Source: Rhodobacterales bacterium
GTDB taxonomy: Bacteria > Myxococcota_A > UBA796 > GCA-2862545
Direction of reading: 5' to 3'
NCBI GenBank assembly: GCA_009936995.1
Contig: JAACDH010000370.1
Coordinates: 1 to 36,901 of the forward strand
DNA length: 36,901 bases
Positions within the stretch are counted from its first letter, which is position 1. Each line of letters begins with the position of its first letter. Shown here in pieces: positions 1 through 23,861 of this stretch. The notes beneath the pieces are model-generated. The model was not told the origin of the DNA. It worked only from the letters and a program-made list of their open reading frames with translations, and made no database searches. Both the position numbers and the translations under genes were made by a program.

Positions 1-986
1 ACGCGGATGTAGGTGAGCTGACCGTAGCGGCCCTCTTCGAGCTTGAAGGCCAAGCCGATGAAGCCGTTGTCGCTGTTGGACTCGATGACGACCTCTTCGG
101 GGTTGTCTTCGTCGAGCGTAAGGGCGATGTTCTCGACCTCGGTGGGGTTGGGCAGGTACGCCTCTACCGCGTCGAGGAGGGGCTGCACGCCGCGGTTCTT
201 GTAGGCCGAGCCACAGAACACGGGAACCAGCTTACGGGCGATGGTTGCGTCGCGGATCGCCTTGGCGAAGGTGACATTGCTGACGGTCTCTTCGAGCATC
301 TCTTCCATCAGCTCGTCGCTGAACATGGAAGCGGCGTCGAGGAGCGCCTCGCGGGCTTCGTTGGCGTCGTCCATCATTTCAGCGGGGATGTCCGCCTCGC
401 GGATGATCTCGCCGTTATCGCCTTCGTTGTAGTAGGCGCGCATGTTGACCAGGTCGACCACACCCGCGAGGGTGTCTTCGATGCCGATGGGGAGCTGCGC
501 CAAGACCGCGTTGAGGCGAAGCTTCTCGCGGAGCTGGCCGGTGACGCGGGAGGGGTCGGCACCCTGGCGGTCGCACTTGTTGACGAAGGCGACGCGGGGC
601 ACGTTGTAGCGGCGCATCTGGCGATCGACCGTGATGGACTGCGACTGAACACCGGCCACGCCGCAGAGGACGAGGATCGCGCCATCGAGCACACGGAGTG
701 CGCGCTCGACTTCAATGGTGAAGTCCACGTGTCCGGGGGTGTCGATGATGTTGATGGAGATGTCTTTCCACTCGGTGTGCGTCGCCGCAGACTGAATGGT
801 GATTCCACGCTCGCGCTCGAGCTCCATGGAGTCCATGGTGGCGCCTACGCCGTCCTTGCCGCGCACCTCATGGATCGCGTGGATGCGGTCCGTGTAGAAA
901 AGAATGCGCTCGGTGAGCGTCGTCTTTCCGGAGTCGATGTGGGCGGAAATGCCGATATTGCGGACATTGGAGAGGTCTAGGGCCAA
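1..986 (-). CDS. fusA: Elongation factor G, mtEFG1/spdEFG1 type (N-terminal part)
   Basis: Ribosomal translocase GTPase; the window holds about 328 N-terminal residues and the C-terminus lies beyond the left edge. The G domain shows [13 protein letters not shown] (P-loop), [10 protein letters not shown] (switch I), [21 protein letters not shown] (switch II; here split as DTPGH then [10 protein letters not shown]) and NKCD (base specificity). The start is a TTG at 984-986, preceded by AGGAGG with 5 bases of spacing; no ATG or GTG lies in frame upstream. Several blocks ([52 protein letters not shown]) are closer to mitochondrial EF-G1 than to E. coli FusA, which reads HIDAGKTTTTER. That is the signature of the spdEFG1 subfamily of spirochaetes, planctomycetes and deltaproteobacteria. 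The specificity loop has NKCD where most EF-Gs have NKMD. Subfamily placement is from memory of family motifs, not from a tree. Confidence 0.95.
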
Positions 987-1412
987 GAGGTCCTCCTGGG
1001 GCTTCGCGAGCGCTGTATGCGGCGTGAAACCAAGCGTGAACAGGTCCCATTCAGAACAGCTGGATGGGCAATAGAGGCGCGGGTTAGCCCGCGCACCGCC
1101 GTTGTGCAAGCCCCTCCACAGTGTTTTCCCCATCGCTGTGGGGGGGCAGGGCCTGGAGACCGCCTATGAGATTCACAAACCCTCTTTTTCTCACCCATAA
1201 TCTGGTGGCTTGCCAGGATCGACGCCCACGGCTTGCACGTCAACAACGCGCTCATAATCAAGCTGTCCGGTTGGGGCCGCCAAGGAAATGAGCGCGATGT
1301 CTGGGCAGCCACAGTCCAATGGGGCGACTGCACGGCAAGCGATCGTTGGTTGTCCGATGGGTCCTGCGCGCGCGCAGTCCAGCTTTCCAGCTAATCCCGA
1401 GCGGTCTCTCCC
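987..1412. other. Gene-free fusA leader with two hairpins
   Basis: 426 bases without a convincing gene. Reading toward fusA on the minus strand there are two stem-loops. One at 1077-1094 has a perfect 7-bp stem GCGCGGG/CCCGCGC with a 4-base loop. The other at 1111-1146 pairs CCCCTCCACAG with CTGTGGGGGGG across a 14-base loop, with one wobble pair. Neither is followed by a T run on either strand, so they do not look like intrinsic terminators. They could be leader structures of the fusA mRNA. No tRNA or promoter could be assigned with confidence. Confidence 0.5.
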
Positions 1413-2024
1413 TTACAGCCCCAGCGCCCGTCGCACCTGCTCCTGCAAGAACGACACCACCGCCTCGTCCAGATCGCCGTCGCCCAAGTGAATCATCTGG
1501 GCCAACTGGGTGCGGTCCTCAATAGACAGCCGAACCAGCTGATGCATTGTAGAGACCGCAAGCAGGCGCCGCTCGGTGACGCTCCAGGTGGGCTGAAAGG
1601 CGCCCAACACAGCGTCGAGGTTGCCGTAGAGTGGCTCTGTCCAGTTGTTCAGCACCACGTCGGGCAGCTGGCCGCGATCGAGCACGTGTCGGACGGTCAT
1701 TCGGATGTGATTGCGGTGCGCACAGCAGAACACCCAGGCCGTGGCCACCAGGTCATCGACCAGGTCGGCCGGCGTGGTTCCCTGCAAGGACTTGGGAGAG
1801 TGCTCGGCCAGATCGTGGTGCAGCCGGGTGATGACTGTGTCGTACAGGCCCTGCTTGTCGGTGAAGTGGTAGGCGAGGGTGGCGACGTTGACCTCGGAGG
1901 CATTCGCCACCATTCGAATCGAGGTACCCGCAAAGCCATGATCCGCGAATAAGGGAAGTGCTTCGTCTAAGATTCGGGCGCGGGTGCGCTCTCCATCTAC
2001 CCGACTTCCGCGTGTCTTCGCCAT
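1413..2024 (-). CDS. TetR/AcrR family transcriptional regulator
   Basis: 203-residue one-component regulator. Residues about 12-62 form the TetR-type helix-turn-helix: RARILDEALPLFADHGF, then GTSIRMVANASEVNVATLAYHF, then KQGLYDTV, the usual three-helix pattern ending in the conserved YHF and K/LY positions. The remaining ~140 residues are the variable ligand-binding and dimerisation domain (LVDDLVATAWVFCCAHRNH and similar helices), so the ligand cannot be read from sequence. The family usually represses its own promoter and a neighbour. Here it is transcribed away from the glmU-like gene at 2101, with a 76-base gap that holds a candidate inverted repeat. Target and ligand unknown. Confidence 0.92.
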   Translation of the reverse strand: MAKTRGSRVDGERTRARILDEALPLFADHGFAGTSIRMVANASEVNVATLAYHFTDKQGLYDTVITRLHHDLAEHSPKSLQGTTPADLVDDLVATAWVFCCAHRNHIRMTVRHVLDRGQLPDVVLNNWTEPLYGNLDAVLGAFQPTWSVTERRLLAVSTMHQLVRLSIEDRTQLAQMIHLGDGDLDEAVVSFLQEQVRRALGL

Positions 2025-2035
2025 TCGTCGTCCCC

Positions 2036-2055
2036 AGTCCGTCGATAGTTGGACT
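2036..2055. promoter_or_regulatory. Candidate operator between tetR-like gene and glmU-like gene
   Basis: AGTCC at 2036-2040 and GGACT at 2051-2055 form an inverted repeat with a 10-base spacer, in the short divergent gap. The size suits a TetR dimer, but a 5-bp half-site arises easily by chance. Tentative. Confidence 0.25.
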
Positions 2056-2100
2056 CGGAGTGGTTAGCCCATTCCCCAGTCCCCGCCACCGAGTTCCACC

Positions 2101-3093
2101 ATGCCTATCTTGCACCTTGACGACACCTTGTCCCAAGCGCCCTTCGCCGGTCAGACCCTCGCCCAACACCTCAAGCACCTCGTGCCCGAAGGGGCGCACC
2201 TCGACGCGCGCTGGCCGACGGTGTCCCGCGAGCGTCTGGACGAGATGGTGCGAGAAGGCGGGTATATTCAAGTAGGTGACCAAATAATCGCCAGCTGTAA
2301 CCCTCAGCTCGGCGCCGTAGGGCTCCCGATCAAGCGCGGGCCGAACGACCCTATCCAAGCCACCGACGCTTGGACCCTTTGCCGAGCATCGCAGCGGGTA
2401 ATCGAGCGGCGGCTTCGCGGGCACATGTCGGCGGGCGTACACATCGTCGATCCGGCCCGCACCCTCGTCGGCCCACAGGTCACCCTCGAAGCGGGCTCAA
2501 TCCTCTGGCCAGACTGTACATTGCTGGGTAAAACCCACGTATCTAAGGGCGCCCAAATTCTGTCCGGCTGCTGGCTTATGGACACCACCGTTGGAGAGTC
2601 CGCGGTGATCAAACCCCACAGTGTGTGCACCAAAGCCCAAGTGGGTCCAGGCTGCAATGTTGGCCCCATGGCGCATCTGCGTCCGGGTACTGTGCTGCTG
2701 CGCGACGCCAAAGTGGGCAATTTCGTCGAGATCAAAAAGACCGTGATGGGCGAGGGGGCCAAGGCCTCGCACCTCACCTACCTCGGCGACACCACTGTGG
2801 GTCCGGCCGCCAACATCGGCGCCGGCACCATCACCTGCAACTATGACGGCTTCGGCAAGCATTCCACCTACATCGGGGCCAACGCCTTTATTGGGTCGAA
2901 TAGCGCCCTCGTCGCCCCCATCCGCATCGGAGATGGCGCCATCGTCGGCGCTGGCAGCACCCTCACCGCCGACGTGTCCGACAACGACCTCGCCGTCGAG
3001 CGCGCCGACGCCCGGGTGCTCAAGGGCTACGCCAAACGCCTCAACGCCCGCAACCAAGTCGCAGCGGCCAAGGCCAAGGCCAACAAGCCATGA
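2101..3093 (+). CDS. GlmU-like left-handed beta-helix acetyltransferase lacking the uridylyltransferase domain
   Basis: 330 residues. From about residue 95 to 313 it follows the GlmU acetyltransferase half: linker helix, HIVDP, hexapeptide-repeat turns, AHLRPGTVLL, VGNFVEIKK, SHLTYLGDTTVG with the catalytic-type His224 (E. coli His363), NIGAGTITCNYDG, and a Lys-rich tail. Known role of that half: acetyl-CoA-dependent acetylation of glucosamine-1-phosphate on the way to UDP-GlcNAc. The roughly 230-residue N-terminal nucleotidyltransferase of normal GlmU is absent; there is no glycine-rich LxxGxGTRM loop. About 75-90 unrelated-looking residues stand in its place, although PFAGQTLAQHL faintly recalls the AGKPLLEHVL stretch of nucleotidyltransferases. 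Its stop overlaps the helicase start (ATGA), so the two are probably co-transcribed. The ATG has only a weak ribosome site. It might act on a different sugar. Confidence 0.85.
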   Translation: MPILHLDDTLSQAPFAGQTLAQHLKHLVPEGAHLDARWPTVSRERLDEMVREGGYIQVGDQIIASCNPQLGAVGLPIKRGPNDPIQATDAWTLCRASQRVIERRLRGHMSAGVHIVDPARTLVGPQVTLEAGSILWPDCTLLGKTHVSKGAQILSGCWLMDTTVGESAVIKPHSVCTKAQVGPGCNVGPMAHLRPGTVLLRDAKVGNFVEIKKTVMGEGAKASHLTYLGDTTVGPAANIGAGTITCNYDGFGKHSTYIGANAFIGSNSALVAPIRIGDGAIVGAGSTLTADVSDNDLAVERADARVLKGYAKRLNARNQVAAAKAKANKP

Positions 3094-12922: not shown

Positions 12923-13770
12923 CTACTTGTTCACGGGAGAGTACTCGATGCTGGTGTGGTGCTCCAGACCGGACTCCACCTTAAACACATTGTCGTTCCA
13001 GCTGTCGTCGTTGATCATCACAACGATGGCCCCGTGCTCGGGTGCGCGGAACTCGAAGTAGGTGCCCACAGCGTGCACCGTGCTCACACCGCTCTCGCCC
13101 GTGAACCTCATGACCAGCTGGCCCTTGAAACAACCCTCGATATTGCAGGGAAGCTTACCGGTAGCCGCTTGTTCGATGTCGCCGGAGGCGTTTATCCAGG
13201 GACCGCCTTCTTCGATGCGGTAGTAGTCCTGTGGACTGGCTTTGATCTTGAACACGTCGTCTTGGCAGACACCGGTGGGGATCTGCCACTCCCTGGAAAT
13301 GTTCAGATAATCAAACAGCGTGTAGTCAAGTGGGGCATTGGGGCATTCGCCCACCGTCAGCCGACCGGGAATTTCGGTCAGCCAGTCCGACCAGCTGCTG
13401 CCGCCACCCTTCGACATGTGTGCAATACACTGCTCGAGGTTCTCTTTCGACACCAACTCGATACGCTCGGGTTTTGCCAAGAGAACGGTCTCGACATTGA
13501 GGACGACCTTGTCTTTAAAAACGACGCCATCTCCCGATCGCCAGACCACTGGCCCATGATCGCGTTGCGGGTGTCTTGCCATGAGATACGCTTCGTGCCC
13601 GATCCCATCTCGGTGAAGTTGGGCGGATACCAACAAGATCCAGTCCAGCCCTCTTCTTGGTGCCAGCCGTCGGGAGGCGGGCCCGCGTCCTTCTTGTTCT
13701 TCTTTCCGGCGTGCGCAGCAGGCGCCACAATGAGCGCTGCGAGGGCGAAGATAGCGAGATTCTTGGACAT
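12923..13770 (-). CDS. Secreted LecA-like protein, reading frame broken (frameshift or programmed -1 shift)
   Basis: Two overlapping frames together make one protein of about 280 residues. The first frame starts at the ATG 13770 (GGAG 9 bases upstream; an in-frame ATG at 13785 is less likely). It has a clear signal peptide (MSKNLAIFALAALIVAPAAHA), then GWTGSCWYPPN and up to about GQWSGDR. The -1 frame then continues (KDKVVLNVETVLLAKPERIE) to the stop at 12923. The C-terminal part (FKGQLVMRFTG, TYFEFRAPEHGAIVVMINDD) resembles the PA-I/LecA galactose lectin (GALVMKIG, GAITLIYND). LecA binds Ca2+ and galactose; whether this one does is not shown. A missing G in CGGGAG (13533-13535) or a slip at TTTAAAG (13513-13519) would both join the frames. 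Could be a sequencing error, a decayed gene or recoding. Confidence 0.7.
13513..13519 (-). other. Candidate -1 slippery heptamer TTTAAAG
   Basis: In the phase of the upstream frame the bases read T TTA AAG, the canonical X XXY YYZ arrangement. A -1 slip gives TTT AAA and then GAC AAG GTC in exactly the frame that stays open to 12923. Heptamers of this form are used for recoding in viruses and insertion sequences. No stimulatory structure was established, and a simple indel remains at least as likely. Confidence 0.35.
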
Positions 13771-13908
13771 CTGGGTCGTCTCCATAAGCGGGGCTTTGAT
13801 AGCACATGAGAACGCCCCGTGGACGCCTGGTGTTCCCCTAAAGAATCCCTTGCCCCTATTTCTCGGGTCGCGTTGGGTACACTAAGTCTCGTCCGATGAG
13901 TGCTCACC

Positions 13909-13921
13909 GGAGGGTCCAATC
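13909..13921 (+). promoter_or_regulatory. Ribosome-binding site that places the mnhE start at AUC
   Basis: GGAGG (13909-13913), then a 5-base spacer, then ATC at 13919. The frame is closed by TAA at 13883. Between that stop and the first membrane helix there is no ATG, GTG or TTG; the next possible start is TTG at 13955, inside the helix. Confidence 0.65.
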
Positions 13922-14392
13922 CGTAAGTTCAGCTTCCTCTTACTGCTCGCAGCCTTGTGGCTGTTGTGGTCTGGCCATTTCGACAACATGATGCTCGGGT
14001 TCGGCGTCTTCTCCGTGCTGGTCACCGCCGCTATTTCCTGGCGTATGGACTCCGTAGACAACGAACAACACCCCGGCGTACCCTCCTGGCGCCTGCTGGT
14101 GTACTTGCCCTGGTTGTTCAAAGAGATCGTGATGTCCAACCTCCACGTCGCCCAAGTCATCTTGCGCGCCGACTTACCGATTCAGCCCCAACTCATCCGC
14201 GTACAGACCACACAGCGCACCGATCTGGGCCACGTGATCCATGCAAATAGCATCACGATCACACCGGGCACCGTCAGCCTCGACGTGCGCAACGGCACAA
14301 TTTTGGTGCACGCCCTTACCCTGAACACTGCCGAGGGAGCGCTGTCTGGCGACATGGACCAGCGCGTCACTTGGCTCGAAGGAGGCGGCTGA
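13919..14392 (+). CDS. mnhE: Mrp/Mnh-type Na+/H+ antiporter subunit E
   Basis: 157 residues when started at ATC 13919, the normal MnhE length. The N-terminus then reads RKFSFLLLLAALWLLWSG, a typical MnhE first helix. Next come a second helix (LGFGVFSVLVTAAISW), WRLLVYLPWLFKEIVMSNLHVAQVIL, and the conserved C-terminal pattern TITPGTVSLDV...ILVHAL. MnhE is a small membrane subunit of the multi-subunit cation/proton antiporter and its family is needed for assembly. First gene of a tightly packed operon (next ATG abuts its TGA). The start is highly unusual: AUC is almost never used. A miscalled ATG is possible; starting at TTG 13955 would cut 12 residues out of the first helix. Confidence 0.88.
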   Translation: MRKFSFLLLLAALWLLWSGHFDNMMLGFGVFSVLVTAAISWRMDSVDNEQHPGVPSWRLLVYLPWLFKEIVMSNLHVAQVILRADLPIQPQLIRVQTTQRTDLGHVIHANSITITPGTVSLDVRNGTILVHALTLNTAEGALSGDMDQRVTWLEGGG

Positions 14393-14671
14393 ATGTTCGC
14401 AGTCTGCATGGTTGGACTCCTGATCACCATGGTCTTGGCCATGGTCCGGGCCATCGCCGGCCCCACGGTCTTCGATCGCATCCTGGCCGCCAACGCCTTC
14501 GGCACCCAGACGGTGTTGATGATCGCTGTGTCCGGTTTCCTCGCCGGTCGACCCGAGTGGCTCGACCTCGCCTTGGTCTATGCCCTCATGAACTTCATCG
14601 GCGTCATCGCCGTGCTCAAGTTCGTGCGCTTCGGCAACCTCGCATCCGACCAACCCGGGAGGCCCACCTAA
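14393..14671 (+). CDS. mnhF: Mrp/Mnh-type antiporter subunit F
   Basis: 92 residues, three predicted membrane helices (MFAVCMVGLLITMVLAMVR, TVLMIAVSGFLAG, LALVYALMNFIGVIAVLKFV). The core RAIAGPTVFDRILAANAFGT is the MnhF/PhaF signature (GPt..DRilA.n..gt). The ATG follows the mnhE stop directly and its TAA shares a base with the mnhG ATG, so translation is coupled. It works as a structural subunit beside E and G in the Mrp complex. Confidence 0.95.
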   Translation: MFAVCMVGLLITMVLAMVRAIAGPTVFDRILAANAFGTQTVLMIAVSGFLAGRPEWLDLALVYALMNFIGVIAVLKFVRFGNLASDQPGRPT

Positions 14672-15024
14672 TGGATCCCGCCGCAATTCTCGCCCTGGTC
14701 ATTGACGCCCTGTCGTGGGCCTTTCTCATGGGTGGCGCGTTCTTCTGTGTGGTCAGCGCCGTGGGCATGTTGCGCATGCCTGACTTCTACACCCGCTGCC
14801 ACGCAGCTGGACTGGGCGACACCATGGGGGTTGCGCTCATCTTCATCGGACTCGGGTTGCAGGCCGACGGCGACCTCATGGTGCTGATCAAGCTAGCCTT
14901 CACCTGGGCGTTCATCTGGATCACCGGGCCCATCGCCACCCACGCGCTGGTCAAGGCCGCCTACGCCCGCGGGTTCGCCATCGAAGACAACACGCCAACC
15001 GCTGGGGCCGCCCATGCCGATTGA
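14671..15024 (+). CDS. mnhG: Mrp/Mnh-type antiporter subunit G
   Basis: 117 residues. The start is the ATG at 14671 (MDPAAILALVIDALSW), which overlaps the mnhF stop by one base. Three membrane helices; the family motif is AVGMLRMPDFYTRCHAAG followed by GDTMGVALIFIGLGL, ending in WITGPIATHALVKAAY (PhaG/MnhG: G.lRlpD.y.R.Ha......lG, TaP...H...raA). A short hydrophilic tail follows. An upstream in-frame extension exists but lies inside mnhF and is not needed. Confidence 0.95.
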   Translation: MDPAAILALVIDALSWAFLMGGAFFCVVSAVGMLRMPDFYTRCHAAGLGDTMGVALIFIGLGLQADGDLMVLIKLAFTWAFIWITGPIATHALVKAAYARGFAIEDNTPTAGAAHAD

Positions 15025-15580
15025 AGCGCTGCTCTTTGTCCTGTTGGTCGTGCTGGCCCTGGCCATTGCCCACATGCGCGACCTGTTCGCTGCCGCCATG
15101 CTGTTCAGCATCTTCAGCTTGCTCTCTGCGGGCATGTTCACGCTGATGGATGCGGTCGACGTCGCCTTCACCGAAGCCGCCGTTGGCGCAGGTATTTCCA
15201 CAGTCTTAATCCTCGGAACTCTGGCGCTCACCTCCAATGAAGAGCGCAACGGCCCCTTCCGGCTCACCCCGCTTCTGGTCTGTTTGGGCCTGGGCGCAAC
15301 GCTGATCTATGGCACCCGCGACCTACCCGTTTACGGCGACCCCGGCGCGGTCGTCCACCATCACGTCGCTCCCGAATATATCGAGGGAAGCCACAATATC
15401 CACATCCCTAACGTAGTCACTACCGTCCTCGCTAGCTACCGTGGCTACGACACCTTCGGTGAAACCACCGTCGTGTTCACCGCCGGACTGGGGGTGCTCT
15501 TGCTCCTCGGTGGCGCCGCACGACGCCGCGACCCCGAAGAAGAAGCCGCACCTCAAGCCACCTCCGAGGTGACCTCATGA
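15014..15580 (+). CDS. MbhD-MbhE fusion subunit (equivalent of the C-terminal part of MnhA)
   Basis: 188 residues. The N-terminal half (ALAIAHMRDLFAAAMLFSIF, VAFTEAAVGAGISTVLILG) is the DUF4040/MbhD fold, with the conserved DVAFTEAAVGAG. The C-terminal half (NIHIPNVVTTVLASYRGYDT, FGETTVVFTAGLGVLLLL) is MbhE-like. In standard Mrp antiporters these two domains are the tail of the ~800-residue subunit A, after its NuoL-like channel. Here they form a separate gene, so subunit A is split. A periplasmic loop with HHHVAPEYIEGSHN lies between them. Overlaps mnhG by 11 bases and mnhB by 4. Confidence 0.9.
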   Translation: MPIEALLFVLLVVLALAIAHMRDLFAAAMLFSIFSLLSAGMFTLMDAVDVAFTEAAVGAGISTVLILGTLALTSNEERNGPFRLTPLLVCLGLGATLIYGTRDLPVYGDPGAVVHHHVAPEYIEGSHNIHIPNVVTTVLASYRGYDTFGETTVVFTAGLGVLLLLGGAARRRDPEEEAAPQATSEVTS

Positions 15581-16008
15581 AGCAGCACATGCGCATGCAG
15601 GACAAAATCATCCTGCGGTTGGGTGCCAAGTTCTTGGTGCCGTTCATCCTACTCTTCGCCTTCTATGTCCAATTCCACGGCGACTTCGGTCCGGGTGGTG
15701 GATTCCAAGCCGGCGTCATAGCCGCAGCCGCCTTCGTGTTGTACGGCCTCATATTCGGCCTAGACACTGCTCAAAAGGTGGTCCCCAAGTCCTGGCTCGA
15801 GAAAGGCATGGCCATCGGCGTCCTGGTCTACGGCGGGACCGGCGTGGCCACCATGCTGCTCGGCGGAAACTTCCTAGAGTACGACGTGCTTCACCATCAC
15901 AACGGTCAGCATTACGGCATCATAGCCGTCGAAGCCGGCGTGGGTATCGCCGTCACCTGCACCATGACGCTCCTCTATTATCTCTTCGCCGAACGGGGTC
16001 GCAGATGA
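15577..16008 (+). CDS. mnhB: Mrp/Mnh-type antiporter subunit B
   Basis: 143 residues, about four membrane helices. Family landmarks: LVPFILLFAFYVQFHGDFGPGGGFQAG (here as PFILLFAFYVQFHGD then FGPGGGFQAGVIAAAAFVLY), with the strongly conserved H-G-x-x-x-P-G-G-G-F-Q-G/A-G of MnhB/PF04039, and later EAGVGIAVTCTMTLLYY. A His-rich loop (VLHHHNGQHYG) is exposed. The ATGA overlap with the preceding gene and with mnhC indicates coupling. Confidence 0.95.
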   Translation: MKQHMRMQDKIILRLGAKFLVPFILLFAFYVQFHGDFGPGGGFQAGVIAAAAFVLYGLIFGLDTAQKVVPKSWLEKGMAIGVLVYGGTGVATMLLGGNFLEYDVLHHHNGQHYGIIAVEAGVGIAVTCTMTLLYYLFAERGRR

Positions 16009-16373
16009 GCCTGGACCAATGGCATCACATCGGTAGCATCGCCCTGCTCTGCACGGGTCTGTACATCGTTATCTCCCGCGACAACCTCGTTAAAAAAATG
16101 ATGGGGTTGAACATCTTCCAGGTGGCGGTCATCTTCTTCTACGTGACCATGGGCAAGGTGACTGGCGGTACGGCGCCGATCATTCCCGCTGACGCCCACG
16201 GCCACGAGGTCCTCTACAGCAACCCCATTCCCCACGTGCTGATGCTCACCGCCATTGTGGTCGGTGTGGCCACCACTGCCTTGGGATTGAGTCTTATCGT
16301 CCGAATCCAAGAGGCCTATGGCACTGCGGAAGAAGACGAGATTGTCCGCCTCGACCTCGAGGAGATCGGTTGA
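16005..16373 (+). CDS. mnhC: Mrp/Mnh-type antiporter subunit C (NuoK-like)
   Basis: 122 residues, three membrane helices, homologous to the NuoK subunit of complex I. Visible: LLCTGLYIVISRDNLVKKMMGLNI (first and second helices with the family's G-L-...-R-x-N-L/x-K pattern), FQVAVIFFYVTM, then PIPHVLMLTAIVVGVATTALGLSLI, which carries the D/HALxLTAIVIg.A..A...al motif in the form PHVLMLTAIVVGVA. Acidic C-terminal tail. Overlaps mnhB and the next gene by 4 bases each. Confidence 0.95.
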   Translation: MSLDQWHHIGSIALLCTGLYIVISRDNLVKKMMGLNIFQVAVIFFYVTMGKVTGGTAPIIPADAHGHEVLYSNPIPHVLMLTAIVVGVATTALGLSLIVRIQEAYGTAEEDEIVRLDLEEIG

Positions 16374-17839
16374 TTCAGTCAAATATGCCCGCGTTGATCA
16401 TCGTCACCCCGATGTTGGTCGCCCCCATCCTCGTGTTTGTGCGTCACCGCATCGTCGCCCGCGTCCTGGCCATCGCCACCGCTTGGTGGTGCTTCTACCT
16501 CGCCGTCTCCATGGCTGGGGTCGCTCAAGATACCCCCATCGCCTACGATATGGGTGGCTGGGAAGCCCCGCTTGGCATCGCATACACGGTCGACGCGTTC
16601 AGCAGTTTGCTGCTGCTCATCGTCTCGGGCATCGCCTCTGTGGTGCTGCCCTTCGGCCCCGGAAGTGCCCTACTCGCCATCCCAGAAGGTAAGAACAACC
16701 TTTTTTATGCTTCGTTTCTAATGTGCATGGCGGGCCTGATGGGCATCGCCATCACCGGCGACCTCTTCAACGTCTTTGTCTTCTTAGAGATCAGCTCGCT
16801 GGCCAGCTACACGCTGATCGCCATGGGCAAGAGCCGACGCGCGCTAATGGCGGCCTTCTCGTACCTGGTCATGGGCACCATCGGCGGCACCTTCACCCTG
16901 CTCGGCATCGGTATGGTCTACCAGCTCACCGGCACGCTGAACATGGCCGACATCGCCCAGCGCCTGCCCGACGTCATCGACTCCCCGGCAACCCGGGTGG
17001 CCTTAGCGCTGATTGTGGTCGGTGGAAGCATCAAGTTGGCGGTGTTCCCGCTGCACCAATGGCTGCCCAACGCCTACACCTATGCCCCGTCAGCGGTGTC
17101 GGCTTTCTTAGCAGCTACCGGCACAAAGGTCAGCTACTACGTCATTGTTCGCGGAATCTTCACCCTGTTCGGCGTCAGCTTCGTGTTCGGCACCCTGCAC
17201 CTCGAGCGGCTGCTGGTTCCGCTGGCGTTGCTGGCGATGTTCGTCGGCTCTACCGCGGCCATCTTCCAGACCGACCTCAAGCGTCTGTTGGCCTACAGCT
17301 CCATCGCCCAGATTGGCTACATGGTGCTGGGACTGGCCATGGCCAACCAAGCCGGCCTCACGGGCGGCATCGTTCACTTGGCCAACCACGCCGTCATCAA
17401 GGGCGGCTTGTTCTTGGTCGTCGCCTGCATCACCTACCGCATGCACACGTCCAAGATCGACGAGCTCGGCGGACTCGCCCAGCGCATGCCCCTCACCGCC
17501 GCCGCGTGGTTGGTGGGCGGACTTGGCATGATCGGCGTGCCCACCACCGCCGGCTTCATCAGCAAGTGGTACCTGGTGATGGGCGCCATCGACCGGGGTT
17601 GGTACGGCATCGCCTTCGCCATCTTGCTGTCGTCATTGCTAGCCGTCGTCTACGTGTGGCGCGTCGTCGAGGTGTTCTACTTCCGCGAAGCCTCCGACAA
17701 ATCCAACCTCGAGGCACCCGCCGATATGCTTGTGCCTACCTGGTTCCTCATCGCGATGACCATTGTGTTCGGACTGTACACACCGTGGTCCGCGGGGCTC
17801 GCCTCTAAGGCAGCCGCGTTGCTCTTGGCGGCATCATGA
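16370..17839 (+). CDS. Mrp/Mnh antiporter channel subunit, MnhD-like (D1)
   Basis: 489 residues, about 14 membrane helices, of the NuoL/M/N-MrpA/D proton-channel family. TTG start at 16370, preceded by GAGGAG with 5 bases of spacing and overlapping the mnhC stop; an ATG 15 bases later lacks a ribosome site. Charged channel residues: Glu140 (FVFLEISSLASY), Lys222 (GGSIKLAVFPLHQWLPNAY) and Lys253 (GTKVSYYVIV). The block DLKRLLAYSSIAQIGYMVLG is diagnostic, and HLANHAVIKGGLFL carries the later conserved His/Lys. This is the best match to a classical MnhD. Confidence 0.93.
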   Translation: MIQSNMPALIIVTPMLVAPILVFVRHRIVARVLAIATAWWCFYLAVSMAGVAQDTPIAYDMGGWEAPLGIAYTVDAFSSLLLLIVSGIASVVLPFGPGSALLAIPEGKNNLFYASFLMCMAGLMGIAITGDLFNVFVFLEISSLASYTLIAMGKSRRALMAAFSYLVMGTIGGTFTLLGIGMVYQLTGTLNMADIAQRLPDVIDSPATRVALALIVVGGSIKLAVFPLHQWLPNAYTYAPSAVSAFLAATGTKVSYYVIVRGIFTLFGVSFVFGTLHLERLLVPLALLAMFVGSTAAIFQTDLKRLLAYSSIAQIGYMVLGLAMANQAGLTGGIVHLANHAVIKGGLFLVVACITYRMHTSKIDELGGLAQRMPLTAAAWLVGGLGMIGVPTTAGFISKWYLVMGAIDRGWYGIAFAILLSSLLAVVYVWRVVEVFYFREASDKSNLEAPADMLVPTWFLIAMTIVFGLYTPWSAGLASKAAALLLAAS

Positions 17840-19308
17840 CCCCAGAAATGGCCATCAAGCTATCCTTAGCGCTGCCCTTGTTCGGCGCCGCAGGTGTCAT
17901 CGCCACCGGAAAGTGGCCCAATGTGCGCGAGGCGGTCACGATGATCGCCGCCTTCCTTACGTTCGGGACCGTGTGCACGCTGTACCCCGTGGTCGCCGCC
18001 GGTGGTCGGCCCGAGCTGTACATCGGCGAGGTGCTTCCCGGCCTGGCCATCGCCTTCAAAGTCGAGCCCCTAGGCATGCTATTTGCCCTGGTTGCCAGTG
18101 GACTCTGGATCCTCACCAGCATCTATGCGGTGGGCTACATGCGCGGCCACCACGAGAAGAACCAGACCCGATTCTTCACCTGTTTTGCTCTTGCCATCAG
18201 CGCCGCCTTAGGCATCGCCTTCTCGGCCAACCTGTTCGCGCTGTTCATCTTCTATGAGATCCTCACCTTCAGCACCTTCCCGCTGGTCACCCACCACGGA
18301 GATGCCAAAGCCATCCGGTCGGGTCGGATCTACCTGGGTGTGCTCGTCGGCACTTCGGTCGCCGGTCTACTGTTCGCGATCATCTGGACTTACGCCATCG
18401 CCGGCACCCTCGACTTCACGCCGGGCGGCATCCTCGCTGGCAAGGCCTCTGGAAACGGCGTCGCCCTGTTGTTGGCGTTGTTTGCCTTCGGAACTGGTAA
18501 AGCCGCGTTGATGCCGTTTCACAAATGGCTGCCCAACGCCATGGTCGCCCCCACCCCGGTGTCTGCCCTGCTGCACGCGGTGGCTGTCGTCAAAGCCGGC
18601 GTGTTCACAATAATGAAGGTCGTCGTCTACATCTTCGGCATCGAATACCTCACCGACCAAGGGGCTTCCCAGTGGTTGATGTGGGTCGCCACCTACACCC
18701 TGGTGGTCAGCTCCGTCATCGCGCTCACCAAAGACAACCTCAAGGCTCGGCTGGCGTACTCCACCATCAGTCAGCTCGCCTACATCGTGCTCGCCGCAGC
18801 CATCGCCACCCCCGCGGCGGTCGTCGGTGGCAGCATGCACATCGCCATGCACGCCATGGGCAAGATCACCCTGTTCTTCTGTGCGGGCTCCATTATGGTC
18901 GGTGCCCACAAGACGAACGTCAGCCAGCTCGACGGCATCGGCCATCGCATGCCCTTTACCATGGGCGCGTTTACCCTGGGTTCGCTGTCGATTATCGGCC
19001 TGCCTCCCATGGGCGGCGCCTGGTCCAAGTGGCACATGGTGTTGGGTGCGGCCGACGCCGACCAGATGTTCTTCGCCGGCGTCTACATGTTGAGCTCGCT
19101 CCTCTCCATCGCCTACCTCATGCCCATCGTGGGAAGGGCCTTCTTCATCGCCGAGAAGCTGCCCGAAGCCGATGATCACGACCACGGCGAGGCCCCCCTC
19201 CTCTGCGTCATACCGTCGGTGCTCACCGGGTTGGGTACCATCGTTCTATTCTTTATCGCCGAGCCGCTGTACCAGCTGTTGCTCCCCATCGTTGGAGTGG
19301 CCCAATGA
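17836..19308 (+). CDS. Mrp/Mnh antiporter channel subunit, NuoL/MrpA-N-like or second MnhD (D2)
   Basis: 490 residues, about 14 membrane helices. Channel residues: Glu141 (LFIFYEILTFSTF), Lys222 (GTGKAALMPFHKWLPNAMVA), and His247 and Lys253 within PTPVSALLHAVAVVKAGVF. The PTPVSALLHA block is typical of NuoL and the MrpA N-terminal channel, which suggests this gene supplies the channel of the split subunit A. DNLKARLAYSTISQLAYIVL and HIAMHAMGKITLFFCAGSI follow. The last ~60 residues include an acidic/His-rich cytoplasmic loop (EADDHDHGEA) and a final helix. The ATGA overlap at both ends shows tight coupling in the operon. Confidence 0.92.
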   Translation: MTPEMAIKLSLALPLFGAAGVIATGKWPNVREAVTMIAAFLTFGTVCTLYPVVAAGGRPELYIGEVLPGLAIAFKVEPLGMLFALVASGLWILTSIYAVGYMRGHHEKNQTRFFTCFALAISAALGIAFSANLFALFIFYEILTFSTFPLVTHHGDAKAIRSGRIYLGVLVGTSVAGLLFAIIWTYAIAGTLDFTPGGILAGKASGNGVALLLALFAFGTGKAALMPFHKWLPNAMVAPTPVSALLHAVAVVKAGVFTIMKVVVYIFGIEYLTDQGASQWLMWVATYTLVVSSVIALTKDNLKARLAYSTISQLAYIVLAAAIATPAAVVGGSMHIAMHAMGKITLFFCAGSIMVGAHKTNVSQLDGIGHRMPFTMGAFTLGSLSIIGLPPMGGAWSKWHMVLGAADADQMFFAGVYMLSSLLSIAYLMPIVGRAFFIAEKLPEADDHDHGEAPLLCVIPSVLTGLGTIVLFFIAEPLYQLLLPIVGVAQ

Positions 19309-19625
19309 GTGGTCATCACCAAGAGCGAGAGCCCATCGTCAACGACGACGGCGCCCCCGTCCTCATCGAGTGGTTCGACGGTCCCAATGTGACCAGGAAT
19401 GTCGTCCGATTCGTCTGGGCCGTGTGCATCGCGACGTTCGCGTTCGACCTCATCTACTGGCAATTGGGCCTGTTCGAGCACGCCCACAAACACGGTCACT
19501 ACTGGTTCGAAGAGCATATCCCCGCATTCCACGGGTTCTTCGGGTTCTTCAGCTTCATCTTCTTGGTCCTAACCGCCATTCAGATCCGAAAACTCATCAT
19601 GCGAGAGGAGGGCTACTATGACTGA
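19305..19625 (+). CDS. Small two-helix membrane protein inserted in the antiporter operon
   Basis: 106 residues, no family recognised. A polar N-terminus (HHQEREPIVNDDGAPV) and an amphipathic stretch are followed by a helix VWAVCIATFAFDLIYWQLG, a His-rich loop (FEHAHKHGHYWFEEHIPAFH) and a second helix GFFGFFSFIFLVLTAIQIR. Its start overlaps the stop of D2 (ATGA) and its end overlaps the D3 start by 8 bases, so it is made together with the antiporter subunits and is probably part of, or an assembly factor for, the complex. Standard Mrp operons (A-G) have no such gene. The clustered histidines could bind metal or sense pH; that is speculation. Confidence 0.85.
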   Translation: MSGHHQEREPIVNDDGAPVLIEWFDGPNVTRNVVRFVWAVCIATFAFDLIYWQLGLFEHAHKHGHYWFEEHIPAFHGFFGFFSFIFLVLTAIQIRKLIMREEGYYD

Positions 19626-21321
19626 TCTCCTCCTCGCCATTCCCCCGGGAATGATCCTGATCGTAGGCGCCTTCCTGGCGGCACTGCTGCCCGGAAAGTT
19701 AAGGGCAATTGCCGGTATTGCGCTTCCCATCCTCGGCTTTGCACACCTGTATGGCCTCCCCGACGACTACACCTGGACATTCCAACTCTTCGACACGACC
19801 ATCGAGCTGGTCCGCGTGGATCGCCTGGCGTTTATCTTCGGCACCATCTTCCACCTGGCCGCCTTCTTGTCGGCCTTGTACGCCTACCACGTCGATGACC
19901 GGGTCCAGCAAATCGCCGGCCTTAGCTACGCGGGGGCCGCCATCGGCGCCGTGTGCGCGGGCGACCTGATCACCCTCTTCGTCTACTGGGAGCTCACCGC
20001 CCTCACCAGCGTGTTCCTGATCTGGGCGGGGCGCACCGAGAAGTCCTACAAGGTAGGGCTGCGGTACCTCATCATCCAGGTCACGTCGGGCGTTTTACTA
20101 CTCGCAGGCGCCTTATCGCTGTACAGCGATGTCGGAACCATCCACTTTGGCCACATCGGTATCGAGACCTTTGGTGGTCAGCTAATCTTGCTGTCGTTCG
20201 GCATCAAAGCGGCCTTCCCGCTGCTTCACAACTGGGTCCAAGACGCCTACCCCGAGGCCACCGTGACCGGGACGGTCTGGCTCAGCGCGTTCACCACCCA
20301 GCTGGCCATCTACTCGTTGTGCCGAGGCTACGCCGGCACCGAGATCTTGATCCCTATCGGCGCCATCATGACGGCCTTCCCTGTCTTTTACGCCGTCATC
20401 GAGAACGACCTGCGCCGGGTGCTGGCCTACAGCCTCAACAACCAGCTGGGCTTCATGGTGGTCGCCGTAGGCATCGGCACCGACCTCGCCATCAACGGCG
20501 CCGCAGCCCACGCGTTTGCCCACATCCTGTACAAGGGCCTGCTGTTCATGAGCATGGGCGCCGTGTTGTACCGCACTGGCACCGCCAAGGGCAGCGAGCT
20601 GGGCGGGCTGTACAAAACCATGCCCTTCACCACCTTCTTCTGCATGGTGGGCGCCGCCTCCATCTCGGCCTTCCCCCTAATGAGCGGCTTTGTCACCAAG
20701 TCGATGATCCTCACGGCCGCGGCCGACGAGCACCACACCGTGGCCTTCTTGGTCCTGCTCTTCGCGAGCGCTGGCGTGCTCGACCACTCGGGCATCAAGA
20801 TACCGTTCTTCGCTTTCTTCGCCCACGATAGCGGTCGCCGTCCCAAGGAGGCGCCCTGGCATATGTTGGCTGCCATGGCCATCGCCGCCGCCTTCTGCTT
20901 TGGCATGGGCGTTTGGTACGAGCCCCTGTACGCGCTTCTACCCTACCCCGACGTGGAATACACCCCGTACAACCTCACCCACGTGGTCACGCAGGTGCAA
21001 CTGCTGATGTTCTCCACCCTCGCGTTCATCGTGTTGTGGCAGACCGGACTGTACCCGCCTGAGCTGCGGTCCACCGTGCTCGACACCGACTGGATTTATC
21101 GTCGCGCCATTCCTCGGGTGGTCGGCGTGGCCCAAAAGGGCATGACCTACGCCTTCAACGCCGCCAACGCCCAGTTCGAGCAGGTCTTCAACCTCGGCGT
21201 GTTCTGGTTGGCCAAGAAGCACCGTCCACCGGGAGTCCTTGGCGAGCCCTGGCCTACGGGAGACACGGCGTTGTTCGCGGTTATTATCCTCGCGGCGACC
21301 TTGGTGATGTACTACACCTAG
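19618..21321 (+). CDS. Third Mrp/NuoL-M-like antiporter channel subunit (D3)
   Basis: 567 residues with about 14-16 membrane helices; longer than D1 and D2 because of a C-terminal extension of about 110 residues (VVGVAQKGMTYAFNAANAQF and following). Good ribosome site (GAGGAGGG). Channel residues: Glu125 (FVYWELTALTSVF) and Lys197 (GIKAAFPLLHNWVQDAYPEA). At the third position, 31 residues after Lys197, there is Gln228 (AFTTQLAIYSL), whereas D1 and D2 both have Lys exactly 31 residues after theirs. NDLRRVLAYSLNNQLGFMVV and HAFAHILYKGLLFMS are conserved family blocks. Probably an extra channel module of the antiporter complex; no redox or hydrogenase genes accompany it here. Confidence 0.92.
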   Translation: MTDLLLAIPPGMILIVGAFLAALLPGKLRAIAGIALPILGFAHLYGLPDDYTWTFQLFDTTIELVRVDRLAFIFGTIFHLAAFLSALYAYHVDDRVQQIAGLSYAGAAIGAVCAGDLITLFVYWELTALTSVFLIWAGRTEKSYKVGLRYLIIQVTSGVLLLAGALSLYSDVGTIHFGHIGIETFGGQLILLSFGIKAAFPLLHNWVQDAYPEATVTGTVWLSAFTTQLAIYSLCRGYAGTEILIPIGAIMTAFPVFYAVIENDLRRVLAYSLNNQLGFMVVAVGIGTDLAINGAAAHAFAHILYKGLLFMSMGAVLYRTGTAKGSELGGLYKTMPFTTFFCMVGAASISAFPLMSGFVTKSMILTAAADEHHTVAFLVLLFASAGVLDHSGIKIPFFAFFAHDSGRRPKEAPWHMLAAMAIAAAFCFGMGVWYEPLYALLPYPDVEYTPYNLTHVVTQVQLLMFSTLAFIVLWQTGLYPPELRSTVLDTDWIYRRAIPRVVGVAQKGMTYAFNAANAQFEQVFNLGVFWLAKKHRPPGVLGEPWPTGDTALFAVIILAATLVMYYT

Positions 21322-22716: not shown

Positions 22717-23487
22717 TTAGTGCGCGTGGGCTTCCTCGTGGTCGGTATGAGGGACCGCGAGGTAGATGTAGATGACGGAAAGTAGACTGAAAACAAAGGC
22801 TTGAATCGTGGAAACCACACAGGCCAGAATCAGGAAGATGACGGGAATGACCAAATAGGTGAGGTCACTCATGATGTTGAAGACCAGGTGGTCTCCGAAC
22901 ATATTGCCAGTGAGCCGAAGCATAAGCGCGACAGGTCGAATGACGAACATCGACAGCGCTTCGACGGGGAAGAGTAGCAGGCCCAAGGGAAGCACGGGGC
23001 CCCACATGTGCTTGAGGAACCCAACCGGGTCGCGACCAAGGCCGACGCTGAGGAACACGAACAGCGAGATGATGGCCATACCGACGTTGGTGTTGATGAC
23101 GTCGGTGGGTGGCAATATCCCAGGAATGATGCTGATGATGTTGCAGGTCCAGATGTACACGAAGGTGGCCCCGATGTAGGGCAGGTACGCGCGGGTGTCT
23201 GCTTTGGACAACAGGTTGTCCATGAAGAAGCGCACGCCTTCGATGACGATCTCGAAGAAGTTGCGAACACTCAGGCCTTCATCGGCGTACCACTGGGTGA
23301 TGTCGGTGCGAGCCTTAGCGGCCTTGAGCTGCTGACCAGCGATGGCACCTAACACGATGAGCACGAAGCACACCGCCCAAGTGGTTGGGTACAGGTAGGT
23401 GTGATCGTGGATACCCCAACCTGCCAGCAGGGTGTCGTTATCGACAGCTGGAATCAGGTGGAACCAAGAGAAGCCAGAAGCGATCAT
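22717..23487 (-). CDS. atpB: F0F1 ATP synthase subunit a
   Basis: 256 residues from the ATG at 23487, whose ATGA overlaps the stop of the upstream atpI-like gene. Longer upstream readings are not needed. Stator subunit that conducts ions to the c-ring. Visible: signal-free N-terminus (SWFHLIPAVDN), TWAVCFVLIVLGAIAG, NFFEIVIEGVRFFMDNLL, LPYIGATFVYIWTCNIISIIPG (split here as LPYIGATFVYIW and TCNIISIIPG), PVALMLRLTGNMFGDHLVF with the essential Arg of helix 4 (E. coli Arg210), and FVFSLLSVIYIYLAV near the end. A His/Glu-rich C-terminus (HTDHEEAHAH) closes it. Confidence 0.96.
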   Translation of the reverse strand: MIASGFSWFHLIPAVDNDTLLAGWGIHDHTYLYPTTWAVCFVLIVLGAIAGQQLKAAKARTDITQWYADEGLSVRNFFEIVIEGVRFFMDNLLSKADTRAYLPYIGATFVYIWTCNIISIIPGILPPTDVINTNVGMAIISLFVFLSVGLGRDPVGFLKHMWGPVLPLGLLLFPVEALSMFVIRPVALMLRLTGNMFGDHLVFNIMSDLTYLVIPVIFLILACVVSTIQAFVFSLLSVIYIYLAVPHTDHEEAHAH

Positions 23488-23861
23488 CGCGTCTCCAGCG
23501 ATACGGGAGCGACCCGGACCGAATGAATGACACCAGCGAGGGGAAGCACCGAGAACACGGTGACCAGCCCAATGGCGACAGCGAGGGGTTGGACCCACTG
23601 CAGGACCACGGCCATGACAGCCAAGGTGATCAGCAATTTGCCAGACAGCGCCGCACCCCAGATTCCGCCACCAAGGCCCGTGGCGACGCTTTGCACGTAG
23701 CGGTCCGCAATGAAGCGGAGAAACTGCAGGTTCAGCAGCAAAACGGCAGCCACTAAGGCCACCTCGAACGCCAGAGTGACACCGCCGACCGCCAAACCCA
23801 ACACCGCGGACAAGGGCAGCGCCCAACGCATGTTTTGGAGGATGGTATCAGGAGGGGTCAT
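23484..23861 (-). CDS. atpI: ATP synthase subunit I-like membrane protein
   Basis: 125 residues, four predicted helices (ALPLSAVLGLAVGGVTLAFE, ALVAAVLLLNLQFLRF, LLITLAVMAVVLQWV, LAVAIGLVTVFSVLPLAGVI). The AtpI/UncI family sits in front of atpB and is thought to help assemble the c-ring; sequence conservation is low, so the call rests on size, helices and position. Overlaps atpB by 4 bases and the upstream gene by 14. Confidence 0.8.
   Translation of the reverse strand: MTPPDTILQNMRWALPLSAVLGLAVGGVTLAFEVALVAAVLLLNLQFLRFIADRYVQSVATGLGGGIWGAALSGKLLITLAVMAVVLQWVQPLAVAIGLVTVFSVLPLAGVIHSVRVAPVSLETR

Follow-up and report, generated by a model that had tools for sequence, protein, structure and literature searches.

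The mnhE locus

The window analysed here, 36,901 nucleotides long, is one entire contig (C107) of a 5.6-Mb genome whose assembly is of the metagenome type, fragmented (724 contigs) and incomplete (78% complete). Statistics of codon usage and of Shine-Dalgarno (SD) sites were taken from a sample of 788,899 bp (0.79 Mb) of the same genome. The gene mnhE heads a ten-gene sodium/proton antiporter operon with the order E, F, G, DUF4040/MbhD-MbhE, B, C, D-like, D-like, a 106-aa protein and D-like (Table 1). All its junctions are abutting or overlapping, with 0-11 nt, and all ten frames are open. Translated from ATC at 13919, MnhE matches the Pfam MNHE family over residues 8-145 with 106.3 bits against a curated cut-off of 27, and it shares the operon with MnhF, G, B, C and D subunits, both of which identify it as MnhE. 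The stretch from 14393 to 21321 reads as an Mrp operon without a full-length MnhA but with an MbhD/MbhE-type subunit and three MnhD-like subunits. A frameshift was also suspected in the atp genes (22720-23826) but dismissed, as this part reads as separate overlapping genes.

Table 1. Features in and around the mnhE operon, with positions in the window
Feature	Position	Strand	Evidence or remark
Divergent neighbour gene, frame-broken near 13540	12923..13785	-	One open frame in relatives inspected
Out-of-frame ATG	13896..13898	+	mnhE start only if the assembly is missing a base before 13919
Shine-Dalgarno GGAGG	13909..13913	+	5 nt (GTCCA) ahead of ATC; enrichment statistics
Proposed AUC start codon of mnhE	13919..13921	+	Coding onset, homolog start position, solved MrpE length
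mnhE/mrpE, 157 aa, first operon gene	13919..14392	+	Pfam PF01899 1.6e-30
TTG within helix 1, first canonical start in frame, without SD; rejected	13955..13957	+	
mnhF	14393..14671	+	Pfam PF04066 1.1e-15; ATG directly after mnhE stop (TGAATG)
mnhG	14671..15024	+	Pfam PF03334 5.2e-26
MbhD/MbhE-domain (DUF4040) subunit	15014..15580	+	Pfam PF13244, PF20501
mnhB	15577..16008	+	Pfam PF04039 5.4e-29
mnhC	16005..16373	+	Pfam PF00420; NCBIfam NF005624
mnhD-like subunit 1 (TTG start)	16370..17839	+	Pfam PF00361
mnhD-like subunit 2	17836..19308	+	Pfam PF00361
106-aa protein	19305..19625	+	No family match (Pfam, NCBIfam)
mnhD-like subunit 3	19618..21321	+	NCBIfam NF009310 3e-208, above cut-off

The upstream in-frame stop of mnhE is TAA at 13883-13885. 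It is followed by GTC TCG TCC GAT GAG TGC TCA CCG GAG GGT CCA, then by ATC (13919), and from there by CGT AAG TTC AGC TTC CTC TTA CTG CTC GCA GCC and TTG (13955). The preliminary description had pointed out the ATC with GGAGG 5 nt upstream and had stated that no canonical in-frame start lies between the stop and the helix interior. Both points hold: the ATC and its SD are read directly from the sequence, and the frame has no ATG, GTG or TTG from 13886 to 13954. The locus has one feature expected of AUC- and AUU-start genes, a near-cognate codon with an SD and no in-frame AUG, GUG or UUG at the start position. Besides the ATG listed in Table 1, a second out-of-frame start, GTG 13900, precedes the ATC. 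The in-frame CTG at 13943 was discarded as a start, because it lacks an SD of at least 4. The RNA near the start codon is not unusual in its structure (z -0.88), with the SD partly paired in the minimum-energy fold, and a sigma-70 promoter scan gave no candidate.

Position of the mnhE start site

We can place the start site of mnhE at 13919 with good confidence. In the genome sample GGAGG lies 4-8 nt upstream of 25 of 133 start-zone ATGs (0.188), defined as those at most 2 codons away from a coding onset, compared with 111 of 25,750 internal codons (0.0043), a ratio of 44. The coding potential of the MnhE frame, scored by codon usage trained on the same sample, has its maximum exactly on codon 13919. 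Taken alone this score is weak, since 40% of the ATGs with a good SD have an onset no more than 2 codons from the start. MnhE is also the sole coding onset in the sample where an SD-paired ATC, ATT or ATA has no canonical start immediately adjacent. The homologs agree with this position. When eight MnhE proteins are aligned, the ATC falls where the shortest relatives have their start codons, and 66 of a further 80 homologs have their nearest canonical start either at the corresponding codon or at the one just before. The solved Mrp/Mnh (CPA3) subunit E, PDB 6Z16 chain E, is homologous and nearly equal in length (158 against 157 aa), and its N-terminus matches, with residue 8 of our protein aligned to residue 9 of the chain.

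With TTG 13955, the first canonical start in frame, MnhE would have 145 aa and a cut first helix. A short MrpE without the N-terminal hairpin does exist (7d3u_E, 121 aa), but the TTG has no SD, in none of the 80 homologs is the nearest start farther away than +7 codons, and relatives align over residues 2-12, which are hydrophobic and coding-like. This start, which the preliminary description had named as an outcome that would contradict its reading, makes the protein 12 residues too short; we consider it very improbable and reject it. It is likewise improbable, if less so, that a base is missing before 13919 and that ATG 13896 is the real start of an MnhE about 8 residues longer. This ATG is one frame off, frame breaks of a single base do occur in the contig, as a neighbouring gene demonstrates, and one homolog (G037) has a similar N-terminal extension. 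However, the ATG has no SD, whereas GGAGG stands at ideal spacing from 13919 (the 44-fold ratio given above), and starts so far upstream are rare in homologs.

Identity of the start codon

The preliminary description had proposed that a full-length MnhE starts at this ATC. The site is well supported, but the identity of its codon is not settled and rests on base 13921: this one assembled base separates a true rare start from a sequence error. On sequence grounds we would give a true AUC start somewhat less than an even chance, and a one-base consensus error is about equally likely. The remaining readings, that is the other starts and a damaged allele, are jointly unlikely.

ATC is a codon that is almost never used to start proteins, and gene callers are blind to AUC starts; to our knowledge very few have been verified in bacteria. 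Elsewhere in the 0.79 Mb of this genome we did not find ATC as a start. Within start zones an SD precedes 18 of 323 ATC codons (5.6%), against 5.0% for all codons and 26% for ATG, so ATC shows no enrichment. The other SD-paired ATC and ATT codons at coding onsets proved to be second codons after ATG, GTG or TTG. A separate observation in the same genome is a coding onset on CTG behind AGGAG (7 nt) in L068 (12205-12828, minus strand), a possible CTG start with canonical starts only 14-15 codons upstream.

The conserved gene that diverges from mnhE shows that this contig carries a lesion. It encodes a signal peptide followed by GSCWYPPNF...GDGVVF..., is split between two frames and has its break 375 bp from the mnhE start. 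Of the 21 family genomes searched, 19 have a match, counting this genome, and the gene is intact in those read through. Searched by tblastn with the proteins of another family member (G001), about 70 kb of aligned sequence contained one frame break that is clear and a second that is doubtful. Elsewhere in the genome, a probable frame break separates two strong matches to the same G001 protein (L045, about 264-2278, minus strand). The frame breaks show lesions that are carried either by the consensus or by the lineage.

It is quite possible, though short of probable, that the codon at 13919 is ATG in the organism and that the C at 13921 stems from a consensus error or from a minority allele. 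Such an error is a live alternative because of the frame break 375 bp away and the rate of 1-2 breaks per 70 kb, and the state of the assembly (724 contigs, 78% complete) points the same way. Frame breaks are indels, however, and therefore say little about substitutions and give no measure of substitution error, and no other defect is seen in mnhE or in the nine ORFs that follow it. Comparative data also favour an error. None of about 87 mnhE homologs examined has an ATC start; all use ATG, GTG or TTG, although these relatives are more distant than the genus. A first GTDB scan with a single protein found no close relative for the comparison, that is no genome of the same genus. Among 61,358 ancestral AUG starts, 1 changed to AUU and none was reported to change to AUC (PMC5622118). 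Natural switches from AUG to a near-cognate AUN codon are thus of the order of 1 in 60,000 (PMC5622118), near plausible consensus error rates, which are themselves an estimate. Against an error speaks that the family tolerates weak starts at this gene, as described below.

The ATC might also be real but belong to a damaged allele, with initiation of mnhE nearly lost in the lineage and the neighbouring gene broken too. Two lesions do lie within 400 bp, but the ten open operon frames and the intact start site and SD make this the least probable of the readings considered.

Two further observations concern the homologs. In the closest relative of the same family (G005, L002) an ATC stands directly before the GTG start of mnhE behind AGGAG; it is not needed as a start, because the adjoining GTG has the AGGAG. 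Six loci that seemed startless or odd (L228, L190, L197, L185, L235 and L226) have, on reading, a canonical start or a TTG, ATG or GTG a few codons away.

Start codons of mnhE across the family

Our survey of 80 homologous loci (L159-L238) covered Alpha-, Beta- and Gammaproteobacteria, Planctomycetota, Gemmatimonadota, Myxococcota and others. In it mnhE, where it heads an operon of this type, favours weak start codons over AUG. Depending on the start-calling rule, mnhE starts with ATG in 24-31 loci (30-39%), with GTG in 24-29 and with TTG in 25-29, while mnhF at the same loci starts with ATG in 58-70 of 80 (72-88%). Published averages are about 82% AUG, 14% GUG and 4% UUG (PMC11497404). When starts are chosen by SD, 48 loci pair a non-ATG mnhE with an ATG mnhF and 4 show the reverse (p=1e-10, a value that treats loci as independent, which related genomes are not). 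The other rules applied to the full set give ratios of 42:7, 43:4 and 39:5. For genes with a single possible start, non-ATG codons are found in 22 of 31 mnhE and 4 of 30 mnhF. The comparator throughout is the downstream mnhF rather than other operon-first genes, and ATGA junctions may favour ATG in overlapping downstream genes.

The bias is clearest in two groups, Alphaproteobacteria, with non-ATG starts in 25 of 34 mnhE against 8 of 34 mnhF, and Gemmatimonadota, with 9 of 9 against 4 of 9. In the six Gammaproteobacteria it is absent. A literature search found no paper on mnhE start codons. The preference of mnhE for weak start codons at the head of this operon type is new here and is the more general result of this work. 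An avoidance of AUG at mnhE across the family would suggest that low initiation of MnhE has been selected for. Since weak initiation is a family trait of mnhE, ATC would be its extreme.

A possible mechanism and known systems

If the codon is genuine, AUC at 13919 would be read by initiator tRNA-fMet with a third-position mismatch, and the strong GGAGG 5 nt upstream would hold the 30S subunit in place on it. Initiation at mnhE is expected to be weak and IF3-sensitive, because IF3 discriminates against third-position mismatches; this expectation is drawn from infC and sigR. The likely purpose, if there is one, would be to keep MnhE synthesis low. It is by inference that we take the C at 13921 as genuine, AUC as the start codon in vivo and initiation as affected by IF3. 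We know of no link between mnhE and IF3. The infC gene of this genome is represented by a fragment for the IF3 C-terminal part at a contig edge (G000:C708:6-92), with the remainder absent from the assembly, and this cut makes its start codon unreadable.

Every junction downstream of mnhE abuts or overlaps, but the suggestion in the preliminary description that translation of the whole coupled operon could depend on IF3 is weakened by the AAGGAGG that mnhF has 7 nt before its own ATG. SD-like sites are found at mnhG, mnhB, mnhD1 and mnhD3 as well, and downstream translation therefore need not depend on mnhE. Relatives have a similar layout, with mnhE usually starting at UUG or GUG and the next gene at AUG, often with its own SD. 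We tentatively suggest, as a rather doubtful overall picture, that mnhE is kept under weak initiation by UUG or GUG in several bacterial phyla and has moved here to an IF3-sensitive AUC, with mnhF and later subunits translated from their own SDs.

Three known systems invite comparison. In Streptomyces the start of infC is ATC (PMC5472188). Like infC, mnhE would combine an AUC or AUU codon, no canonical start in use and a predicted IF3-sensitive initiation, but infC encodes IF3 and closes a feedback loop, whereas mnhE encodes a membrane subunit. If confirmed, a near-cognate start in a membrane-complex operon would mean that such starts are used outside infC-like feedback. The closest analogue is Streptomyces sigR, which starts at GTC and has an extended SD. 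IF3 represses it, and the gene after it carries an RBS of its own (PMC5472188). Shared with mnhE are the non-canonical codon, the strong SD and the position as first gene of an overlapping operon in which the second gene is served by a separate RBS. The GTC of sigR differs in being conserved across Streptomyces and shown by experiment, while the ATC of mnhE comes from the sequence of one genome. The L12ae gene of Staphylothermus marinus resembles mnhE in that its ATC start was inferred, from alignment and the absence of a valid start (PMC2678158), but it belongs to an archaeon with a finished genome and is a ribosomal gene that is probably essential. Compared with the system of 6Z16 chain E, the mnhE described here differs in its ATC start codon and in heading a ten-gene operon without a full MnhA.
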